From the IMG/VR virus record IMGVR_UViG_3300042890_001239, positions 1-64,000 of that record: a DNA stretch of 64,000 nt; one strand, written 5' to 3'. The notes below the pieces were generated by a model, which ran no database searches, was not told the origin of the DNA, and saw only the letters and a program-made list of their open reading frames with translations. Shown here piece after piece: positions 1,744 to 59,789 of the stretch; the first letter of the stretch is position 1, and the number at the start of each line of letters is the position of its first letter. The position numbers and the translations under genes are program-made. Source of the stretch: a virus.

Positions 1744-4700
1744 TTAGACTGGAATACACTCAAAGTAAACACCATTATATGTAAATCCTCCACCAGTGCG
1801 TATACTACAAGTAATTGGATATAAATCTACACCTTCACCATCACATACACTACCATCTCCTAGAGGCATTTGATTTGGATCTGTACTGCATAATGTACTA
1901 CCAAATGGACCACCACGACCATCATAGGCATTATATGTAGTTCCACGTATTAACATTGCGAAACCAGCAACATCACGATCTACACCGCCTAAACTTATTG
2001 CACTATAAAATGCCGGTGAATTTAATATAGTCAAGCCACTATAGGATCCTTTAAACAGACCAGGATCTATAGAGGCTAGACTTCCATATAGAGAATAATT
2101 TAACCACCAAGTACCTACACCTAGAGTAGTACCTCCAACATCATCACCACTTAAACTTAATTGAATTAATTCCCCAACAACTGCAGTTGCACCTTGAATC
2201 TGTAATGTACCGTTTCCAGGTATAACAACACTTGAAGACGGGTATCCATTAGAGGATGTTTTTCTTGTCTGCCATATACTAGGTGTAGACAAGAATGTGC
2301 GTGGTGTTGGAATCCATCTATCAGATCCATTGTATGAAATTATATCACCAGCACACAATCCGTTTGCTGGAAGATTTGGATATAATCTAGAAATTATTGC
2401 AGAACCATCTGTAACACCACTACTTCCACTACTACTACCACTAATTGTAATACTGTTCGATGTAGCACAAGTACCGATGGTAATATTTGATCCGGCAAGT
2501 AAAGTAACATCCCCTGTCAGTCCACCAAAACCAGTTGTAAATAAACCATGAACACCTTGATTTGTAATAGTAACATTACCTGTTGCACCTGATACTGAAA
2601 TAGCGGTTCCAGCAACAGCCGTGCATACACCTTGAAGTGCTCCAGTTTTTCCATTAAAACTTCTTACAACAGTACCAAGATAAGTTCCACTTACATTAAG
2701 ATTATTACCACCAGTAACTGTGAGAGTTCCATATGCAATTGTACTAACACCTTGACTAGCACCACCAATACTTAAGACAGCATCTTTTAAATTAACATTT
2801 GAGGTAACAAAACTACCAACGTGTGATAAACCTATACTTTTAGTAGTATCTGTTGATGTAATGCTATTAATATCAGTAAGATTAGATGATAAACTTAATG
2901 TTAAATTTCCTGTTCCTCCAACTGGACTTACATTAATTTGTGATGATGTTCCAATTATTTGACGAACACCAGTATTAGTAATAGTTACATTGCCAGTAGA
3001 ACCTGTTAAGAAAATTCCAGCTCCTGAGTTAACTGATCCAACACCTACTACATTACCGGTAAGACCATTAAATCTGTTGACAAGATTTCCTTCAATATCA
3101 TTTACAGATCCATCAAAAGATATATTAGAAGCATACACATTGATAGAATTAGTTTGATTTGTTATCTCTATTCCGGGTACTGTTTTACTTACACCAGATC
3201 CAACTTTTGTAACGTTACTACCATAAAGAGTTAATGCATCATTAGTTGTATTGATAAAAATTCCACTTGCATTACACACACCCGTAATATAAACAGTATC
3301 ATCAAGAATAATTGGACCACATGAGCCACATGCTCCAGTAGATGAGAAGATTATAGAATTACCCGATAAAGTAATTCCCATATTATTTCCAGCAGCTAAA
3401 GTTACTGCACCTGTGAGACCATTAATAAAATTAATAATATTAGGTGCACTTATATTTCCGGAGAATGATGCACCAGATGCAGAAATACCTCTACTTGCAC
3501 TCACAAGACCTGTAAAAGATGCTGTAATACCTTTCAGTGTTCCTGATAAAGTAACACCACGACTTGCAGAAATACCTGCATTAAACGTATTAAGTCCTGT
3601 GAAGTTTGCAGTAACACCTGTAAGAGTTCCACTAAGATTTGCACTGGCACCATTGATTAACAGGCTATTAAAATTTACATCGCTTGTGGACACTTCAAGA
3701 TAAGATCCAGTTTGATCGCCTATTTGTACACTACTGGTGCTATCAAGTACTATAAGAGCACCAGTAGTAAGAGATATATTATTTGCAGAAGGGGTACTTA
3801 ATACAATTGCACCATCACTATTAATGTTTAAACCCTCAGTCACAATGTTTATCGGATTACCACCAATATAATTACTAATATTATCTGTGTAAATAGTACC
3901 AGTAGAATTGATAGTTAGTGCTGTTAAACTTCCTGTTGTTGTAACCATTGACCCTACACTAGGGGTATAAACCCATCTTGGTACAGAAGTATCAACATAA
4001 ATTCCTGTGTTACCAGTTCCAGTCGCAAGAGCCAAACAGAAACTTCCAGTTCCTGCTTCAGTAATTTGAATTCTAGACGTGCTTCCCGACGTTAATCCAC
4101 TTGCATTACCTGTGAGATTTGTTCCGAGACCAGAGAAGCCAACCGTAGAGGATACAAGTCCTGTGAATTCAGCACCACCTAATGTTACACCTGTTACTGC
4201 ACCTGTTAGTCCGTTGAAAGTAATAACATAAGGACCACTTATACCATCGGCACCAGTATTACCAGGGGCACCAGTAGCACCAGTATTTCCTGCTGATCCA
4301 GTAGGACCTTGTATACCAGGATCACCTTTATCACCCTTTTGTCCAACAGCACCATTAAGATTTACATTCCAGTCATTAAAATATCCTGTACCTGTAACAG
4401 AATTAACGGTAAGAGATAAGTTTATACCAGTATAACCATTAACTGTTGCAATAAAATATTGAGATAAACCGGCTGCAACTAAAACAGTTTGAACTTTAGT
4501 ATAGGCTAATCCAGTTGGTATGGTTAACGTGACACCAGAACCAGAACAAATACCTGATAGGGTTATACCTACTTTGCTTGTGGTACTATAAATATCCCCA
4601 GCCAGACCAGTAGCACCAGTATTTCCAGTAGCACCATTGGCACCAGTAGCACCCGTATTTCCTTGAGGACCAGTAGCACCCGTATTTCCTTGAGCACCCT

Positions 4701-44500: not shown

Positions 44501-46540
44501 TTATTGATTATTACCATTAACTGTAGTTGATGTAGTTTGACAGCTACCATCTACAACATTTTCTGCCCAGAAATAACTTAAAAATTTATTTTGATATTCT
44601 GGATAAACTTGATTGCCACTTTCTGATAATAATGTAGTTAATGGAATCTGATACATTTTTACAATATGAAATATGTCAGCAGAATCTGGTGGAGTAGCAC
44701 TTCCATTAGTTCCTATTGCTCTATATTGAAATCCAGATGGAATATTAGAAGGACTCCAACCAGGTGGAAGATAGGATGATGTTAAACCGCGTTCATTTAC
44801 ATTTATTGCCCATGTATCATCTTGTGTTGCACTAGATGCAACTGAATCTAAACTCCAATTTTCTAATTGATGAAAATAATATGACGCTGCACCTGATGAT
44901 CCACCTGATCCTCCAGAAGAACCAGACATTCCAGCTGGACCACATGCTCCATATATGGCATTAAATTTAAGTTTATTCCATTTATATCTGTATTTTTTTG
45001 CATTTCCTGGTACAGATCCACTTATTCCAGAAACGCTATCTGGTTCATAACGTTGTAATAAAGCAAAAAAATCTTGTTCTGGTTGTTTGCCCATACAACA
45101 TAAAGAATACATTACAAAATTTTGAGCTTCTATTTCTCTTAATTTTTTTAATCTGTCTTCAGATGCTCCTGTTAGGGTAGATTGAAATACATCATAACGA
45201 ATGTCAATAACTTTTTGTAAATACGTATCTATTCCATTTATTCCAAGAGAAGTGCTTGTAGCAGGAAGATCTTTATCATCTGGATAGTGGGGATGTATCG
45301 GAGTCATATCAAACATGTTTTTCCACATATCTGGACTATCCAGATATGGCATGTAGCCACTCTCACCCATCAATACCATATTATAATAGCTCTTCTCAGT
45401 ACCATATTGATTTCCTAACAAATTTGATATTGATTTATCATTTGTAGGTAATTGACCATCAAAATATCCCCAAGGATGATCAATAAAGATATTATCTCCA
45501 CCTTTAGGGGCAGTTGTTCCACGTCCATATATACTTACTACATCAATATTATATTTTTGTCCATCATCTTGAAAATGAAAAGTTAAATTTTTTGTAGTAT
45601 TACGTTCTGATTCAATAATAGCATCTGATAAAGCATCTCCAGTAAGACCTAAATTTACTTCTACTGTATTTGTATCCAAATACTTTGGAGTTTTTCTTAT
45701 GTAATAATAATTTTTAGAAATCCATTGATATGCTGGATTAGTAGCAGCAAAGTATGCTTTTCTATAATATCTACCATCAATATTTCTTGTAACTTGATCA
45801 CCATCAAAAACTGCCACACTTCTCACTTCATCTATTACAGTTGCAGCAGAAATATCATCAGCTAAGTTACGTTCAAAAGATTTAAAATTCATTGCCCCAT
45901 CAAAAGAAGTCCAAAATGCAAAATTTGCATCTCCCTTATTATTTACTGCACCATTGCACAAATACTGCATAAATTCAATAACATTATCTGGTATTGCTTC
46001 TTCACCACTATTATATGGAATTAAAGGACGATATAAGAAAAAATTTGATGCAAAATCATTATATCCATAAGTTGGAGCATTACACACAGTTCTTAATTTA
46101 ACTATTAATTCATTTATACCAAAAACAGTTGGTTTTTTAATTCCTAATAAATTATTTACAGAATTTTTAGATAAAAAGGTATAATGCTGATTAGTAAAAT
46201 TAATTGCAACTAAAGTTATTTCGCTATCTGACGCCGCATTATTAATATAAGAAACACTTGTTATAGGAAAAGTATAACTATTTCCATTAAAAAATTGAAG
46301 AATAATATTTTGTATATCATTTTTTTGTATAAATGATACAATATCATTTAAGTCCGTTACAACAAGAGTACCTGCTGGTAAGGTATCTGTTACATTTTCT
46401 ACCATTTCAACTTTTTCAAAACGACATTCTGTGTTTTGTTTTACTATATCAATAGCAAAATTAGTTGATGTTGCGGGTGATTGTAAAAATAAAGATTTTA
46501 CACTAGAATATGCCGGATTAAAATTCTTAGTATTTGCCAT
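44501..46540 (-). CDS. Large putative baseplate hub protein (gp27-like), 679 aa
   Basis: N-terminal ~220 residues (FAIDIVKQNTECRFEKVEMV, GTLVVTDLNDIVSFIQKND, FLYRPLIPYNSGEEAIPDNV) show the repeated beta-barrel pattern of T4 gp27 and related hub proteins. The C-terminal half has a Gly/Ser linker (SGSSGGSGGSSG) and aromatic-rich sequence that is not recognised. It is longer than T4 gp27 (391) and may fuse additional hub functions such as a spike carrier. No lysozyme domain was seen. Synteny (between gp53 and gp25) supports a baseplate role. Confidence 0.58.
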   Translation of the reverse strand: MANTKNFNPAYSSVKSLFLQSPATSTNFAIDIVKQNTECRFEKVEMVENVTDTLPAGTLVVTDLNDIVSFIQKNDIQNIILQFFNGNSYTFPITSVSYINNAASDSEITLVAINFTNQHYTFLSKNSVNNLLGIKKPTVFGINELIVKLRTVCNAPTYGYNDFASNFFLYRPLIPYNSGEEAIPDNVIEFMQYLCNGAVNNKGDANFAFWTSFDGAMNFKSFERNLADDISAATVIDEVRSVAVFDGDQVTRNIDGRYYRKAYFAATNPAYQWISKNYYYIRKTPKYLDTNTVEVNLGLTGDALSDAIIESERNTTKNLTFHFQDDGQKYNIDVVSIYGRGTTAPKGGDNIFIDHPWGYFDGQLPTNDKSISNLLGNQYGTEKSYYNMVLMGESGYMPYLDSPDMWKNMFDMTPIHPHYPDDKDLPATSTSLGINGIDTYLQKVIDIRYDVFQSTLTGASEDRLKKLREIEAQNFVMYSLCCMGKQPEQDFFALLQRYEPDSVSGISGSVPGNAKKYRYKWNKLKFNAIYGACGPAGMSGSSGGSGGSSGAASYYFHQLENWSLDSVASSATQDDTWAINVNERGLTSSYLPPGWSPSNIPSGFQYRAIGTNGSATPPDSADIFHIVKMYQIPLTTLLSESGNQVYPEYQNKFLSYFWAENVVDGSCQTTSTTVNGNNQ

Positions 46541-48299: not shown

Positions 48300-48728
48300 A
48301 TGGCGTACAAAACAATCTTTAATCCAAAGAATCCTAAAAAGTATGCAGGAGACGCATCAAAGATCGTTTGTAGATCTCTTTGGGAGCGAAATGTATGTAA
48401 TTTTTGTGACGAACACCCAAATATTTTAAAATGGGCTTCTGAAGAAATTGCCATTCCATATTTTAGCCCGGTAGATAAAAAAATTCACAATTATTTTCCT
48501 GATTTTTTAATTCAATTTAAAAATACAAACGGGATACAAACATGGATGGTGGAAGTTAAACCAAAAAAACAAACCTATTTAAAAGAAAATGCATCTAAAA
48601 AAGAACAAATTATTTGGAGTATAAACAGCGCAAAATGGGAAGCTGCAAAAAAGTATTGCGAGACAAACAAAATACAGTTTAAAATTTTTACAGAAAAAGA
48701 ACTATTCAGTAATGGCAAACACAAATAA
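48300..48728 (+). CDS. 4: Head completion protein gp4
   Basis: T4 gp4 (with gp50) completes DNA-filled heads and has a TnsA/endonuclease-like fold. YKTIFNPKNPKKYAGDASKI, CRSLWERNVCNFCDEHPNIL, KWASEEIAIPYFSPVDKKIH and NYFPDFLIQF follow T4 gp4 (PSNPQKYKGDSSNI, RSLLERQFM, SEELFIPYLSPIDNKIHRYF) nearly position by position. D-x-E-x-K-type residues are present (PDF, EVKPKKQ). 142 aa, T4: 150. Leaderless late start is likely. Confidence 0.95.
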   Translation: MAYKTIFNPKNPKKYAGDASKIVCRSLWERNVCNFCDEHPNILKWASEEIAIPYFSPVDKKIHNYFPDFLIQFKNTNGIQTWMVEVKPKKQTYLKENASKKEQIIWSINSAKWEAAKKYCETNKIQFKIFTEKELFSNGKHK

Positions 48729-49308
48729 TTCAAATAATTCAATTATAGGTATTAAAGATTTCTTTTCAAGACATAGGGGTTTACAAAGAAATAATAGATT
48801 TTCTATGTCTTTTTTAAATCTACCAGAAAAAATACCTCAAATTCAAAACTTTGATTTCAATCCTTTATCTGTAGCAATATCTGGAAGAGCTATCGATGGT
48901 GTTGCTGACAATCTTGCTGGATATGGTCTTGGACGTACTGTGCCAAGATCACAAAAATTTCCAGAAGGCGTTATGCTAAATTTTCCAATAACAAATGATC
49001 ACCAAATAACATATTTTTTTAATGAATGGTTTAATGCAATTTATGCTGGTGGTAGACAAAAAGGTGATTATACTAAACCATTTCAATTATCATATTATGA
49101 TGATATCATTTATAATACTCAAATGAATATAAATTTTTTAGATCCAAACGGAAATATAAATGCTACCTATGAATTTTATGAAGTATATCCCGTAGAATGT
49201 CTTCCTATGGAATTAAGTATGTTAAAAAACGATCTTTATTCTGTGTACAGTGTTTTAATGATGTTTAGAGATTTTAATTTTGTGTTACCAGTTATCCCAA
49301 CAATTTAA
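48712..49308 (+). CDS. 54: Baseplate tail tube initiator gp54-like
   Basis: Tube-fold protein of 198 aa: IKDFFSRHRGLQRNNRFSMS at the start and NFPITNDHQITYFFNEWFN, TYEFYEVYPVECLPMELSM later match the gp19/gp54 tube fold. T4 gp54 (320 aa) initiates tube polymerisation on the baseplate. Position between gp4 and gp26 agrees with gp54 in marine T4-like phages. It overlaps the end of gene 4 by 17 bases and no Shine-Dalgarno is seen. Confidence 0.75.
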   Translation: MANTNNSNNSIIGIKDFFSRHRGLQRNNRFSMSFLNLPEKIPQIQNFDFNPLSVAISGRAIDGVADNLAGYGLGRTVPRSQKFPEGVMLNFPITNDHQITYFFNEWFNAIYAGGRQKGDYTKPFQLSYYDDIIYNTQMNINFLDPNGNINATYEFYEVYPVECLPMELSMLKNDLYSVYSVLMMFRDFNFVLPVIPTI

Positions 49309-49321
49309 ATAAGTATTAATT

Positions 49322-49990
49322 ATGGATCCAAATATTTTACAATCAATAGAACAATTAATGCCTCGTTATGAGGCTGAACTTCCTTTTAGTAAAGAAAAGG
49401 TTACATTTACACCGTTTAGAGTTAAAGATGCAAAAAATATATCAATAATTCTTCAAGAAGAAAATAAAAAATTATCTTTAATAGCATTAGTTGAAATTTT
49501 AAAAACAAATACACATGGTGTGAATGTATTAGATTTATGTCTTGCAGATGCTGAATATCTATTTTTACAAATAAGATCAAAAAGTGTTGATGAACGATTA
49601 AACCTAATACGAAACGAAGAAAAACTTCAACTGTATATTTTTGATATTAAACATAAAAATGAGATAGTAACAGAAACTATAAACATTTCACCTGAAATAA
49701 ATTTAGTATTAGAAACACCAACAATCAATAATTTAATTAAACTAAACTCTTTAGAAAAAGAAGACTTAATAAAAAGTTGTATTAAAAAGATTGTTGTAAA
49801 AAACGAAATATATTATCCAAACAAATTTCTTCCAAAAGATTTAAAAGATATATTAGATAATCTTCCAATGTCTATGCTTGGTAAATTTGAAAACTTTTTA
49901 TCAAATCAACCAGAACTTTATGCTATATTGGAAACAAAAGAAGGTCCAAAGGAGGTCAGCGGGTTTTTAAATTTTTTTATCTTTCGGTAA
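49322..49990 (+). CDS. 26: Baseplate hub assembly protein gp26
   Basis: PRYEAELPFSKEKVTFTPFR followed by VKDAKNISIILQEEN is the start of the T4 gp26 (T4 baseplate) family; DLCLADAEYLFLQIRSKSV continues it. 222 aa, T4: 208. The last codons contain an A-AAT-TTT heptamer preceded by AAGGAGG, and the zero frame then stops at 49988-49990. Slippage by -1 would fuse the protein to a further 66 residues. This organisation resembles the tail assembly chaperone pairs of other long-tailed phages. There is no good Shine-Dalgarno before the ATG. Confidence 0.88.
   Translation: MDPNILQSIEQLMPRYEAELPFSKEKVTFTPFRVKDAKNISIILQEENKKLSLIALVEILKTNTHGVNVLDLCLADAEYLFLQIRSKSVDERLNLIRNEEKLQLYIFDIKHKNEIVTETINISPEINLVLETPTINNLIKLNSLEKEDLIKSCIKKIVVKNEIYYPNKFLPKDLKDILDNLPMSMLGKFENFLSNQPELYAILETKEGPKEVSGFLNFFIFR
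49949..49978 (+). promoter_or_regulatory. Programmed -1 frameshift signal
   Basis: AAGGAGG (49949-49955) lies 13 bases before the heptamer A-AAT-TTT at 49969-49975, which is split correctly in the gp26 frame (AAT 49970-49972, TTT 49973-49975) for X-XXY-YYZ slippage. A second T-TTT-TTT register follows at 49972-49978. An internal Shine-Dalgarno at 10-14 bases is the known stimulator in dnaX. Confidence 0.75.
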
Positions 49991-50172
49991 AGTTTTTTGA
50001 TTTAAAAGATTATTTTACAACAAACTTTACCTTAATAAATAATTTTAATTGGAACCTGTATGATTTAGATAATATGCTTTGGTGGGAACGTGAAATATAT
50101 GTATCGCTGCTAATAGATTACCAAGAACAAAAAAAATACAAAGAAACAAATAATAAAATTCAAGGTTTTTAA
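49972..50172 (+). CDS. 51: gp51-like extension read by -1 frameshift from gp26
   Basis: After the slip, the -1 frame reads FFYLSVKFFDLKDYFTT and continues through LYDLDNMLWWEREIYVSLL and DYQEQKKYK to TAA at 50170-50172. The frame is open from 49891 but has no ATG, GTG or TTG until an internal Met close to its middle, so independent initiation is unlikely. The W-W-E-R-E-I-Y-V-x-x-L motif resembles the short gp51/tail-assembly-chaperone proteins of marine T4-like phages (from memory, to be checked). Product: either a gp26-gp51 fusion or a separate gp51 if an unusual start is used. Confidence 0.72.
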   Translation, partial: FFYLSVKFFDLKDYFTTNFTLINNFNWNLYDLDNMLWWEREIYVSLLIDYQEQKKYKETNNKIQGF

Positions 50173-50175
50173 TAT

Positions 50176-50604
50176 ATGATAGACAATCCAAATGATTTTG
50201 TATTAGATATATCTGCTGAACAACAAGCATTTAGCAATTCTATTATGTCTTCTTCTGAGCAGATGCAAGAGATACAAAGTAATCCAGATGCTATTCGACT
50301 TCCTGATTCAATGTCATATACTCCAGCCAATGTGGATGTTAGTAATGCCACGACCGCAGAAGCATCAAAAGTTGCTATGGATTTAACTATTAAATTTGAT
50401 CCAGAAGAACAATATAAAGCGTTAAAGGAAACAGTTGATGGTATGCAAAAAGGAATACAGGAACTTGGCAATGAGCAACAGTCTAAATGGATTCCTTTTC
50501 CAAAAGCAGTAAACAACTTTGAAGAAAAACCAATATTAGAACAAACTAATTTAATTTTTGAAGAAAGACGTTCTAAATTTTCTGAATATCCTCGTTGGGC
50601 ATAA
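50176..50604 (+). CDS. Unrecognised protein after gp26/51, 142 aa
   Basis: Acidic, mostly helical and Gln/Ser-rich, without Cys. MIDNPNDFVLDISAEQQAFS at the start and LGNEQQSKWIPFPKAVNNF near the end. Pattern and position suggest an assembly factor or minor hub protein, but no family is recognised. It begins three bases after the gp51-like stop without Shine-Dalgarno, so it is probably translated by reinitiation. It ends directly before a bidirectional terminator. Confidence 0.6.
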   Translation: MIDNPNDFVLDISAEQQAFSNSIMSSSEQMQEIQSNPDAIRLPDSMSYTPANVDVSNATTAEASKVAMDLTIKFDPEEQYKALKETVDGMQKGIQELGNEQQSKWIPFPKAVNNFEEKPILEQTNLIFEERRSKFSEYPRWA

Positions 50605-50629
50605 AAAAAGCCCCTTGCGGGGCTTTTTT
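50604..50629. terminator. Bidirectional terminator between the gp26 region and gp32
   Basis: AAAAAAGCCCC / GGGGCTTTTTT with loop TTGC. It serves the plus-strand late genes and the minus-strand gp32 transcript, whose ends face each other here. Confidence 0.92.
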
Positions 50630-51486
50630 CAGTCATTCTCCATTTCGGAGAAGTACTTCAGCGGGTCTTTTTCTTCAACATCATGTTCAGCAAGTGTATC
50701 CTTAACATCATCTTCGATGCTATTGGACTCGGTAAACTGAGCACGAATATCATCTCCAGTAGCCTTCTTTAGACGAGCCTGAAGTTCTTCATAACTCTTA
50801 AACTGACTCTTGTCAGTAAACTCCTTAAGAGAATACTGCTTCTTCCAAAGCTCTTCTAGCTTCTTGTCATCACCACCAAGAAGTGGTACTGGAGCAGCAA
50901 ACTCTGAACGATCATAGTTTACGTAACCACCAACATTACGAATCTTGATCTTAAAGTCTGCACCAGTCCAGAAGTTAAATGGATCAACTGCAACTTCATC
51001 CTTATACTCTGGGTGAGCAAGACTCTGAATCTTTTGAAAGATCTTTGTACCATATTGATAAAGGAAGTTCTTTCCCTTGTTTTCTGGATTTGCTGGATCT
51101 TCAATAACAAGAATATTAGAGATATAAGTCAACTTGCGCTTACGAGTGCGTGCAATATTCTTATCATCTTCAATACCACTATTCCACAGTTCTGTGTTTG
51201 CCTGACAGATTGGGCACTTCTCCCCTAGAGTTGTAAGGCAGTTTTCAAACAGCCACCCACCCTTACCTTTAAATGCGTGACTATAAACTGCTACAAATGG
51301 TGTGTCATCTCCCTCAACTTCTGGGAGAAACCGAATTACTGCATAGCCGTTGCCAGCCTTGTCAATACCCGGCTTCCACAGCCGATCATCCTTGTAGCTG
51401 TCCTTTGAAGACATCTTATCAAGACGTTCCGTTAGAGATGCGACTGAGTTCTTACTCTTCTTCTTAAAATCTGAAAAACCTGCCAT
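50629..51486 (-). CDS. 32: Single-stranded DNA-binding protein gp32
   Basis: Coats ssDNA in replication and recombination. 285 aa (T4: 301). Basic N terminus (SDFKKKSKNS) for cooperative binding; FLPEVEGDDTPFVAVYSHAF; zinc ligands H70, C83, C91, C94 (C-P-I-C); aromatic DNA-binding region; acidic C-terminal tail ending DPLKYFSEMEND that contacts partner proteins. The leader carries an early promoter and a small hairpin just before GGAAAG, a possible autoregulatory site as in T4 gene 32 (inference). Confidence 0.95.
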   Translation of the reverse strand: MAGFSDFKKKSKNSVASLTERLDKMSSKDSYKDDRLWKPGIDKAGNGYAVIRFLPEVEGDDTPFVAVYSHAFKGKGGWLFENCLTTLGEKCPICQANTELWNSGIEDDKNIARTRKRKLTYISNILVIEDPANPENKGKNFLYQYGTKIFQKIQSLAHPEYKDEVAVDPFNFWTGADFKIKIRNVGGYVNYDRSEFAAPVPLLGGDDKKLEELWKKQYSLKEFTDKSQFKSYEELQARLKKATGDDIRAQFTESNSIEDDVKDTLAEHDVEEKDPLKYFSEMEND

Positions 51487-56498: not shown

Positions 56499-59400
56499 TT
56501 AAATTAACGTTACATTACAAATTTGTGGATTATCAAAATCATCCCATATTTCTGGACACGAAAATCCATCAACACCACTCCAACATTTTGGATTAATCAT
56601 TTGTGTTTGTGGATCGGCTTCCCATTGTTGTAATGTTTTAAAAGTTGAAACTACATAACTATTATCAAAATCAGGACAATTAGTTGGATTCGGAATACAA
56701 GCTGCATATTGTGGTGTTTTTCTTCCACATAAACTGTGACCCCATGTCATTCTAATATCACTATCACAACAATTTGTAAGTCTTTTAGATTCAACATATA
56801 CATATATTGAATATACTGGAGAATTGACGTATACAGTATATTCTATTCTTCGTATTAATTTATCTCCACTTGGTATATCTGTTACAATGGCATCACCTAT
56901 ATCAACTCGATCTCCGGGAATACCTTGTATGATATCTCGTGGACCACCAATCCAGTATGTGTCTGGGGCTCCCAAATCTATTACTGTATATTTACCTTCT
57001 GATGCTGCTTGTAATGCAGCAATGTATGTACTTAATCTACACCCATTGGCTTTAACTAATGGACCAAGATCAAGCGGTCCTGGAGGAATTCCATCACATG
57101 TACCTTCAGCATAAATGTTAAATGGATAAGGTGAACCTGTGCCTGCAGTACATTCTGGATCAACTATAACACACTCAGTTATTATTTTATATGCTGCATC
57201 TCTAAGAACATTTGGTTGATTTAAATCACTTTCAAGATCTGGCAAACCTACATCATTTTTTATACCACATTCTGTTTGTCTACCATAACATTGTTGTCCC
57301 AGTCCAGATCCCCATATAGCACTACCTACATTAGGCAGATTATATGGTCCAGTTTGTGGTTCACCATTATTAAAAAATATTGAAAAGGGTGACAATGTAT
57401 AAACACATAGTCTAGGTTTAGATGAATTTGGAACATCTGATCCTGGAAGAGGTGGGCACTGTGGAGTGCGACAATTTCCTCCAACAGTTTGTTCTTCAGA
57501 GTAATAATAACTATTGGATAAACTTAATTTTGCTGTAAAACTACTACTATCAATAAATGGTGTTTCTCTAAAGTCATAAGAACAACTACAGTCGTTTGTA
57601 ATAAGAGTACAATCTGACAAAAATGTTCCTTGACCAGTATAATTTATACTAAAATTAACATTAGCATTAAATGGTGACTTTCCATTCCATGGTTCTGAAA
57701 CTTCTGTGCAACAGTTTTTTGGTTCAGTATCACCAGAATTATTTGATCCTAGTCCACCACTATTTCCAGTATTATTGCAATCTTGATTTGGTGCAGAACA
57801 CTCTGTGCAAGGATTTTCTAAAATAACATCATTAATAGTTCCACGTTCTTGAATACTGTCACCAAATGGTTCCCACAAACTTGTTTTAAACGCCAGATAA
57901 TACCATCCATTTTTCCTAGTATAAAATATTTCTGGATAAGAATCTACATCATCACAAGAATAAAATGAATTGGGGCAAGTTGTTTTATTGCAAGGACAAT
58001 ATTCAAAACCCCAGCATGATTGTGGTGTGTTATTATTTGGAATTTCACATATTGGAAAGGCGTATATACCTTCACAACAGTTAGCCCAAGGTTTACATGC
58101 AACTTCAGTTATTTCTGCATCTTCTGGTAACATATAATCGGGATCACATGGAGCACCGCATTGAAATAACAAATAATATAATTCACCATTGTACTTAAAA
58201 GTTTTATATAAAACTTCTGATAATTCACCTGTACGAGATAACTCTTGGAATCCAGTTGCACCTGAACCACCTGATAAACCAAAAGTGCTATCTGGACATG
58301 TAAATGCTCCTAATCCACCTCCACCATATCCACCACCTAAACCTATATCTCGTATGGATGCAGTTCCTCCAGTTGTTCCGGCAGTAGATCCTCTACGTTC
58401 TATAACTGTATTAAAGTTAGCTAAACTGTTACAAGGATTATATCCTGTACTTCCAGTTGAACCAGTTCCACCAGATGCACCTGTTGCGCCTGTTATACCT
58501 TGTGTATTACCAGTACAACAATCTTGTGTTAAACTACAAATATAATCTGCTTGTGCATTTGTTAAACAATAATACGTTTGTTCAGGAATACTGCTTAATG
58601 ATTGATTGCATGGACAACGCAATGAAGCAAAATTTAAATTAATTTTACCACTTAAACCAGTTCCATCTGAATTTATATTTGTTGGAATCCATCCACCACT
58701 ACCGGCAACATTTTGATAACCTGCTAGTCCAGCAACATCAACTACCCAATAATCTGGATCACACATGTGTGCTGTTCCAGAAGTATTTGCAGGACGAGAT
58801 TTATCTGTTACGGTACTACTTCCTCCTCCACCACCAGATCCACTAAATCCACCTCCACCACCACCTCTTAATCCACCACCGCCGCCACCTCCACCACCAA
58901 TAATATTTAAAATATCAAATGCTCCGCGACCACCTTTTGATCCTTGACCATCTTGTGCACCAGTTCCACCTTTACCTCCGGAAGTCTGTGTTCCTCCCGA
59001 ACCACCTGCATCACCACCGCCCATACCACCAAGAGTAACTCCGGCTTGTCCACCATTAGCAGAATATCTTCCTGCACCACCACCACCGCCTGCTATAAGA
59101 AATGCAGATTCTGGGTCTTCTATACTTGTAGCAAGATAAGCTGCGCCACCACCCCATGCCCCATAGCCTTGTCCACCTCCTGCAGGTACTGTATCTACAG
59201 CAGCCGTCCATCCGGTAAAAGATCTACCAGGATCACTACCTATACCACCATACCCAACAACAGCAATATAATCTTTGTTGTAAGTTCCTGTTTTTTGTGC
59301 ATATGCACCATTACCACCGGGAGTAACATTATTTACTCCTCCACCACCCGCACCCCATGCTTTATAAACAATTTGACGTTGTGTATCTAATTCTAGTTCA

Positions 59401-59774
59401 AAACACTTTTGTTTATCATTTTCGCATTCAGAACCCGATCCATATCCACCATTATATCCACCAAATATTCCTCCAGTTGGTTGATTATCACATGTAATAC
59501 CTTTAAGTTTCATTGGAGGATTTCCATATCCAACAAATACAAAACTTGAATATGGTAATTGATAATATGGATGGCCATCTTTATAATAACCAGATGCGCC
59601 ATATACAGGATGACCTGATAAACCGGAAACAAAATTGTTTAATTGTGCTGATGTGTCGGATCCAGTAAATCCTGTGGCTCCAGTATAATGGTATCCAACA
59701 AATCCCATACCACCATAATATCTACATGGAACTGCAATCCAGTTGCCACCACAACAACAAGCTTTTTTAGGCAT
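56499..59774 (-). CDS. Glycine-rich, Cys-rich adhesin-like virion protein, 1091 aa
   Basis: Begins MPKKACCCGGNWIAVPC. Residues ~100-340 are extremely Gly-rich with [18 protein letters not shown]-type runs, comparable to glycine-rich adhesin domains. A brief collagen run follows (TGATGASGGTGSTGSTG). The last ~650 residues are rich in Cys pairs (for example CCEGIYAFPIC, CSAPNQDC, CNQSLSS), unusual for a cytoplasmic phage protein and suggestive of a disulphide-stabilised or metal-binding tip. The start is set at the ATG at 59774, behind CTAAATA and GAGGAT; a TTG six bases upstream is possible. Host-recognition role inferred. Confidence 0.72.
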   Translation of the reverse strand: MPKKACCCGGNWIAVPCRYYGGMGFVGYHYTGATGFTGSDTSAQLNNFVSGLSGHPVYGASGYYKDGHPYYQLPYSSFVFVGYGNPPMKLKGITCDNQPTGGIFGGYNGGYGSGSECENDKQKCFELELDTQRQIVYKAWGAGGGGVNNVTPGGNGAYAQKTGTYNKDYIAVVGYGGIGSDPGRSFTGWTAAVDTVPAGGGQGYGAWGGGAAYLATSIEDPESAFLIAGGGGGAGRYSANGGQAGVTLGGMGGGDAGGSGGTQTSGGKGGTGAQDGQGSKGGRGAFDILNIIGGGGGGGGGLRGGGGGGFSGSGGGGGSSTVTDKSRPANTSGTAHMCDPDYWVVDVAGLAGYQNVAGSGGWIPTNINSDGTGLSGKINLNFASLRCPCNQSLSSIPEQTYYCLTNAQADYICSLTQDCCTGNTQGITGATGASGGTGSTGSTGYNPCNSLANFNTVIERRGSTAGTTGGTASIRDIGLGGGYGGGGLGAFTCPDSTFGLSGGSGATGFQELSRTGELSEVLYKTFKYNGELYYLLFQCGAPCDPDYMLPEDAEITEVACKPWANCCEGIYAFPICEIPNNNTPQSCWGFEYCPCNKTTCPNSFYSCDDVDSYPEIFYTRKNGWYYLAFKTSLWEPFGDSIQERGTINDVILENPCTECSAPNQDCNNTGNSGGLGSNNSGDTEPKNCCTEVSEPWNGKSPFNANVNFSINYTGQGTFLSDCTLITNDCSCSYDFRETPFIDSSSFTAKLSLSNSYYYSEEQTVGGNCRTPQCPPLPGSDVPNSSKPRLCVYTLSPFSIFFNNGEPQTGPYNLPNVGSAIWGSGLGQQCYGRQTECGIKNDVGLPDLESDLNQPNVLRDAAYKIITECVIVDPECTAGTGSPYPFNIYAEGTCDGIPPGPLDLGPLVKANGCRLSTYIAALQAASEGKYTVIDLGAPDTYWIGGPRDIIQGIPGDRVDIGDAIVTDIPSGDKLIRRIEYTVYVNSPVYSIYVYVESKRLTNCCDSDIRMTWGHSLCGRKTPQYAACIPNPTNCPDFDNSYVVSTFKTLQQWEADPQTQMINPKCWSGVDGFSCPEIWDDFDNPQICNVTLI

Positions 59775-59789
59775 TATCAATCCTCATGG

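Follow-up and report, generated by a model that had tools for sequence, protein, structure and literature searches.

Here we describe, in a T4-like virus of bacteria, a gp26-like gene and an overlapping gp51-like frame which very probably form one tail assembly chaperone gene that is read with a -1 frameshift. The window, i.e. the whole stretch of DNA that was analysed, comprises 64,000 nt of a 66,212-base virus record and carries T4-type genes for terminase, major head protein, portal and single-strand DNA-binding protein, together with a weak match to the sheath. The gene pair, the elements of its signal and the tail-tube-like gene described below lie on its plus strand.

The gene pair and its relatives

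The gp26-like gene (49322..49990) encodes 222 aa and is proposed to be the short tail assembly chaperone (TAC-N). It matches PF12322 (T4_baseplate) with 80.4 bits at a cut-off of 24.5 and phrog_150 with an E-value of 2.3e-22. Its 3' end reads, codon by codon, GGG TTT TTA AAT TTT TTT ATC TTT CGG TAA, the zero-frame stop codon TAA occupying 49988..49990. Directly upstream lies a tail-tube-like gene (48712..49308; phrog_45 tail tube, E 2.1e-11).

The gp51-like -1 frame (49978..50172), proposed as the C-terminal domain of a long chaperone (TAC-NC), matches phrog_634, 'baseplate hub assembly catalyst', with an E-value of 6.9e-16, starting at position 59 of the 121 positions of the profile. The pair thus contains both the PF12322 domain and the C-terminal family of gp51 that characterize T4 gp26/gp51. 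The -1 frame opens before the T-TTT-TTT heptamer described below, stays open from 49972 to 50169 (66 codons), ends with a stop codon at 50170-50172 and encodes the motif WWEREIY. No open reading frame in a list of those with at least 40 aa and an ATG, GTG or TTG start ends at 50172, so the window holds none of these codons upstream of the conserved domain, and no start of its own was found for the frame. An earlier sequence-only reading of this DNA had described the 66 open codons, the motif and the missing start in the same way.

A 142-aa gene at 50176-50604 follows directly after the gp51 frame and could not be assigned convincingly to a family (its best PHROG has an E-value of 0.046); behind it, at about 50602-50630, a terminator-like GC hairpin with a T run is found. 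No tape measure gene adjoining the gp26/gp51 pair was recognised within the window. Two genes, at 44504-46540 (679 aa) and 56499-59780 (1093 aa), are without PHROG match up to E 0.01, and one or the other might be an unrecognised tape measure gene. In Cr30 an annotated tape measure gene is separated from gp51 by one small hypothetical gene.

A nucleotide search of the region against a phage collection delivered no match, and relatives were therefore gathered by protein searches, with gp26 cut before the junction, or whole gp26 with patterns ending before the junction, as query. The resulting 273 sequences comprise at least 262 loci from four scans of viral contigs, 8 phage records, T4, the locus of the virus record itself and the window; some contigs are repeated, and the three scans with gp26 cut before the junction contributed the best 80 loci each, so that further loci exist beyond this set. 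All but one of the 273 have gp26, the exception being the T4 locus with gp26 on the other strand, and among the loci listed it is complete in 270 of these 272. The -1 frame carries the gp51 domain in 269 of the 270 complete loci, no locus has it in another frame, and one is without a match. Removal of identical junctions left 222 distinct ones; dropped from this number was L243, in which the gp51 domain was not found and whose gp26 ends with AGT TTT TTC. The 222 junctions are not independent and fall into 157, 71, 35 and 13 clusters at 80, 60, 50 and 40% gp26 identity, respectively. Further sets were A6 with 52 manually chosen sequences of these loci, A7 with 50 sequences (every third of the 157 representatives remaining without L001-L010) and A9 with 53 of 54 sequences (L053, whose locus ends early, was omitted). 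As far as comparison of sequences can tell, these 269 of 270 loci and 222 of 222 junctions strongly support what the sequence-only reading had proposed, a -1 frameshift joining gp26 to gp51 in the layout of lambda G/GT.

Gp51 in T4 and other named phages

T4 gp26 and T4 gp51 both match PF12322, and phrog_634 is matched at its C-terminus by T4 gp51 but not by T4 gp26. Judged from these matches, T4 gp51 consists of a gp26-like domain and the C-terminal domain that is found in the -1 frame of the window, i.e. the T4 proteins belong to the same families as those of the window, and T4 gp51 has the domain order predicted for the frameshift product. The alignment with T4 gp51 is continuous through the gp26/gp51 junction, from the heptamer onward. 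Since T4 gp51 holds both domains in one protein, gp26 resembles a short chaperone and gp26-51 a long one. T4 and Aeromonas phage 31 differ from the window in that the short and the long form are separate genes: both phages have a gp26 gene with no heptamer at its end and a separate full-length gp51 gene with its own ATG after AAGGAG. Gp51 of Aeromonas phage 31 and of RB43 matches 97% and 99% of the length of T4 gp51, respectively; in RB43 the full-length gp51-like gene is adjoined by a second gene with a weak match to the gp26 profile (E 0.00066). The full length of gp51 in T4, Aeromonas phage 31 and RB43 fits the reading of gp26-gp51 as a fusion. Gp51 genes with an ATG and a Shine-Dalgarno sequence and with no heptamer, named by the sequence-only reading as evidence against a frameshift, thus occur in T4 and Aeromonas phage 31, but T4 gp51 has its own gp26-like N-terminal part.

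An in-phase T-TTT-TT[C/T] is present in 10 of 12 named phage records (KVP40, phiN3, Cr30, OLIVR5, Ci1, BUCT608, S-PM2, DLP_6, AS-szw and D525). The two others, Klebsiella phage May and Vibrio phage D503, have an open -1 frame after a gp26-like gene and no canonical heptamer, and neither gave a match to the gp51 profile at E 0.01 or better. In Klebsiella phage May (Ackermannviridae; L277, about 3240-3480) and in Vibrio phage D503 (L280, about 2610-2850) the -1 frame is unannotated and contains a gp51-like MPW motif, the junctions offering only G-ATT-TTC or A-CTT-TTC. KVP40, Ci1 and AS-szw are recorded as Straboviridae, like T4, and the record of D525 is without a family. With KVP40, Ci1 and AS-szw in the family of T4, the frameshift layout and the separate-gene layout both occur within one family.

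In AS-szw, which we take to be a relative of Aeh1, T-TTT-TTC is followed by a gp51 that lies unannotated in the -1 frame (L282:2181-2366). According to PMC3037559, gp51 of cyanophages and marine vibriophages is shorter by ~200 residues at its N-terminus, and Aeh1 alone is without gp51. The unannotated frame of AS-szw suggests an explanation for the gp51 reported missing in Aeh1, and the short gp51 of cyanophages and vibriophages would be a result of the frameshift.

GenBank records annotate a free gp51 that begins at or after the gp26 stop, and such a gene would be a small gp51 with a start of its own at a rare codon or with a re-start after the gp26 stop, comparable to the T4 group, in which gp51 is a separate gene. 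An ATG, GTG or TTG does occur in the -1 frame within 6 codons after the heptamer at 82 of the 222 junctions, and there an additional free gp51 product is possible. At or before the heptamer, however, such a codon is found at only 6 of the 222 junctions, and the window has none upstream of the conserved domain; the similarity to T4 gp51 spans the junction, and an independent start would leave the conserved phase of the heptamer and the codon bias without purpose. We regard a separately started gp51 as very unlikely.

The proposed frameshift signal

The signal of E. coli dnaX consists of a Shine-Dalgarno-like stimulator, an A-AAA-AAG heptamer and a downstream stem. The window shares the stimulator-like site upstream, the slippery heptamer and the stem downstream, with T-TTT-TTT in place of A-AAA-AAG. 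The junction contains an in-phase heptamer of the type XXXYYYZ, as dnaX-type signals do. By the codons of the gp26 phase (AAT 49970-49972, TTT 49973-49975, TTT 49976-49978) two overlapping heptamers, A-AAT-TTT at 49969..49975 and T-TTT-TTT at 49972..49978, are in -1 slip phase in the window. Both had been located by the sequence-only reading, which took the former as the slip site; this choice was not borne out. All 222 distinct junctions and all 157 representatives among the loci listed have a TTTTTT[C/T/A] in phase (as last heptamer TTTTTTC in 119, TTTTTTT in 99 and TTTTTTA in 4 of the 222), and at each of the 222 it lies downstream of the point where the open -1 frame starts and upstream of the gp26 stop. 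In-phase AAATTTT amounts to 32 counts among the 222 junctions, and relatives swap AAT for CGT, AGT or ACT while T-TTT-TTT is kept. This conservation, 222 of 222 compared to 32 counts, points to T-TTT-TTT as the working site of a tandem -1 slip. The gp26 stop follows soon after, as had been stated, with TAA 12 nt, not 13, after 49975.

In all 157 representatives the codon preceding the Phe-Phe pair has T as its last base and TTT is the codon that follows, compared to T-TTT-TTN in 11 of 151 Phe-Phe pairs elsewhere in gp26. All 35 clusters formed at 50% gp26 identity keep T-TTT-TTN, for which the log10 probability given the amino acids is -13.3 on the assumption that the clusters are independent. 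Elsewhere in the gp26 genes in-phase XXXYYYZ heptamers (Y = A or T) occupy 441 of 47,393 codon positions and in-phase TTTTTTN 45 of 47,393, and the presence at 222 of 222 junctions argues that the heptamer at the junction is more than chance.

An internal Shine-Dalgarno-like site, AAGGAGGT (49949..49956), is a putative stimulator marked by silent-site conservation and located 15 nt before the T heptamer. The AAGGAGG placed by the sequence-only reading 13 bases upstream of its slip site is part of it (49949-49955, 13 nt before 49969). Among the 31 window-clade representatives the Lys codon in the site is AAG in 29 (AGA in 2) and the Glu codon GAG in 30 (GAA in 1), compared to 14.9% AAG and 12.9% GAG at other places in gp26. 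The alignment of relatives suggested earlier as a check finds the T heptamer conserved and, in the window clade, also these silent codon sites. Pairing with the 16S rRNA tail at most 24 nt upstream is predicted with -8 kcal/mol or better for 43% of the 157 representatives, in contrast to 1.4% of same-phase control positions with anti-Shine-Dalgarno pairing of that strength. A stimulator of the dnaX type is typically located about 10-14 nt upstream of the heptamer. Compared with E. coli dnaX the spacer differs between groups: the motif is present in 142 representatives and absent in 15 of 157, and its distance from the heptamer is 8-10 nt in 102 of the 142, of which 66 have 10 nt, the commonest value, and 15 nt in 28. 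The 15 nt of the window clade are wider than the spacing of most representatives with the motif.

Downstream, a 10-bp RNA stem is predicted, which was absent from the sequence-only reading, the coordinates of which were otherwise correct within one base. The 5' arm GGTAAAGTTT (49986..49995) includes the gp26 stop codon and pairs with the 3' arm AAACTTTACC (50022..50031), and in the window clade the stem begins 7 nt past the T heptamer. For a dnaX-type signal a stem is expected about 5-9 nt past the heptamer, and the 7 nt lie within this range. In the window alone the folding z is -4.11 and 0 of 200 shuffles fold equally well. In 56 window-clade sequences, 50 of them distinct (set A8), 96.2% of the stem cells are paired, and pairing drops to 67.6% or less in slid controls. 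The covariation score of this stem beats 500 of 500 shuffles, and 3 pairs show changes on both sides, a number reached by 6 of 500 shuffles; further pair types are not beyond the shuffles (63 of 500), so that two of five covariation measures are not, or only nearly, beyond them. Two of these three pairs, one going from A-U to G-C and the other from G-C to A-U, differ jointly in L170, L173 and L178, perhaps as the result of a single event, and neither change alters the protein of the -1 frame. Pairing is poor (6 of 10) in L031, which is the window-clade sequence most distant from the others.

Among wider relatives, the 70-nt stretches downstream of the heptamer have a mean z of -1.92 compared to -0.62 and -0.20 in two control regions, in an RNA energy scan of 78-79 of the 157 representatives with 25 shuffles each. 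The P-SSM2-like group shows a different stem at 5 nt, of which at least 9 of 11 pairs are kept in only 23 of 53 sequences; one of its pairs exchanges between U-A, A-U and G-C. Two-sided changes in this stem surpass all 500 shuffles when counted by cell, and do not stand out when counted by pair (228 of 500). Of the 222 junctions, 125 have a predicted stem that begins 3-10 nt past the heptamer, as do 455 of 1110 controls, a modest enrichment which does not support a stem just past the heptamer in every relative. The putative stem is claimed here for the window clade and, less firmly, for a part of the P-SSM2-like group.

A change of frame could also arise in transcription, when RNA polymerase slips on a T run and produces mixed messages, and the window does offer seven consecutive T. 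Six T are short for transcriptional slippage. With TTTTTTC as last heptamer, 119 of the 222 junctions have just six, and the phase of the heptamer, the preferred spacings of the Shine-Dalgarno-like site and the covarying stem are features of ribosomal slippage, which makes slippage by the polymerase still less probable than a separately started gp51.

The -1 frame itself is protein-coding. Over its codons 7-52 the 31 window-clade sequences have a mean of 0 stops, whereas the remaining two frames average 5.8 and 4.5 stops for each sequence. Their differences at codon positions 1, 2 and 3 amount to 0.245, 0.149 and 0.424, and codons with a single difference between sequence pairs are synonymous in 4303 and not synonymous in 2738 cases. 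At the 217 junctions measured the frame runs 158-203 nt past the gp26 stop. Two frames also resemble a gene split by an indel, but with a broken gene or sequencing error and gp51 as a remnant the -1 frame should decay in relatives, and no decay is seen in the 222 junctions and 31 window-clade sequences. An arrangement shared by cultured phages and 222 distinct junctions, with a mean of 0 stops and mostly third-position differences in the window clade, leaves this explanation practically negligible.

Probable chaperone identity and proposed mechanism

The sequence-only reading had understood the pair as a frameshift in a T4-type hub assembly gene. The frameshift in a T4-type gene is supported; gp26/gp51, however, are probably the tail assembly chaperone pair itself rather than a hub gene with an odd frameshift. 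Chaperones of this kind are required to build the tail, bind the tape measure protein and do not remain in the virion, and their genes are located between those of the tail tube and the tape measure. In chaperones of the lambda G/GT type, including those of P2 and HK97, one gene yields two forms by -1 slippage, and the window likewise is predicted to have a short and a long form with slippage near the 3' end of the gene. The AlphaFold model of gp26 has a mean pLDDT of 88.4; the -1 frame, folded separately, gives a helical model with a pLDDT of 78. The best structural alignment of the gp26 model is with 3fgx, an uncharacterised protein (Z 7.5, 88 of 96 residues). The HK97 tail assembly chaperone 2ob9 aligns with the modelled N-terminal part of gp26 at Z 6.8 over 87 of 107 residues, which is moderate support, as a Z below 8 can reflect a common arrangement; the next structure has Z 3.1. 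Foldseek with the gp26 model gave no match at E <= 0.001, and the gp26 profile, searched against solved structures, matched just 2 of them up to E 10, with no chaperone among these, i.e. the solved chaperones are without a match to gp26 of the window at the sequence level. T4-type gp26 is longer than the lambda G/GT type, with parts beyond the aligned portion. Against this role, a review cites genetic work that locates T4 gp26 in the completed hub (PMC3004832), which does not fit a chaperone absent from the virion.

Vladimirov, Gautam and Davidson reportedly identified tail assembly chaperone genes of T4-like phages in 2022. Two later papers cite Vladimirov et al. 2022, one for poly-T slip signals in the TAC-N genes of T4-like phages (PMC12846349) and one for some T4-like phages having a short gene together with a long, fused one (PMC10885494). 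Most probably these are the same gene pair, and the statement of the sequence-only reading that it knew of no description for gp26/gp51 probably fails. A literature search, with subscription journals mostly outside its coverage, found no paper evidently describing the site of the window. Other phages are known to make a chaperone by frameshifting, and recent papers report the same for relatives of T4.

From the conservation of the two frames, the heptamer, the Shine-Dalgarno-like site and the stem we infer the slipping and its frequency as well as the existence and roles of two products. Most ribosomes would stop at the gp26 stop and yield the short chaperone of 222 aa. A fraction would be held back by pairing of AAGGAGGT with 16S rRNA behind and by the 10-bp stem 7 nt ahead, would slip back one base on T-TTT-TTT into the -1 frame and would produce a long gp26-gp51 protein, 283 aa by coordinates. 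By analogy with lambda G/GT, the N-terminal domain of the window's chaperone would coat the tape measure protein and the predicted helical C-terminal domain would bring in the tail tube subunits.

For the T4 superfamily as a whole we lean towards the view that the frameshifted single gene is ancestral, with a three-part signal (Shine-Dalgarno-like site, T heptamer and a stem that includes the stop codon) whose spacing varies between clades, that the T4 group replaced it by gene duplication, and that the gp51 of cyanophages and vibriophages is mis-annotated and was never truncated. The frameshift state of KVP40, D525, Ci1 and AS-szw and the separate-gene state of T4 and Aeromonas phage 31 provide two natural states for testing how the ratio of short to long chaperone is set.
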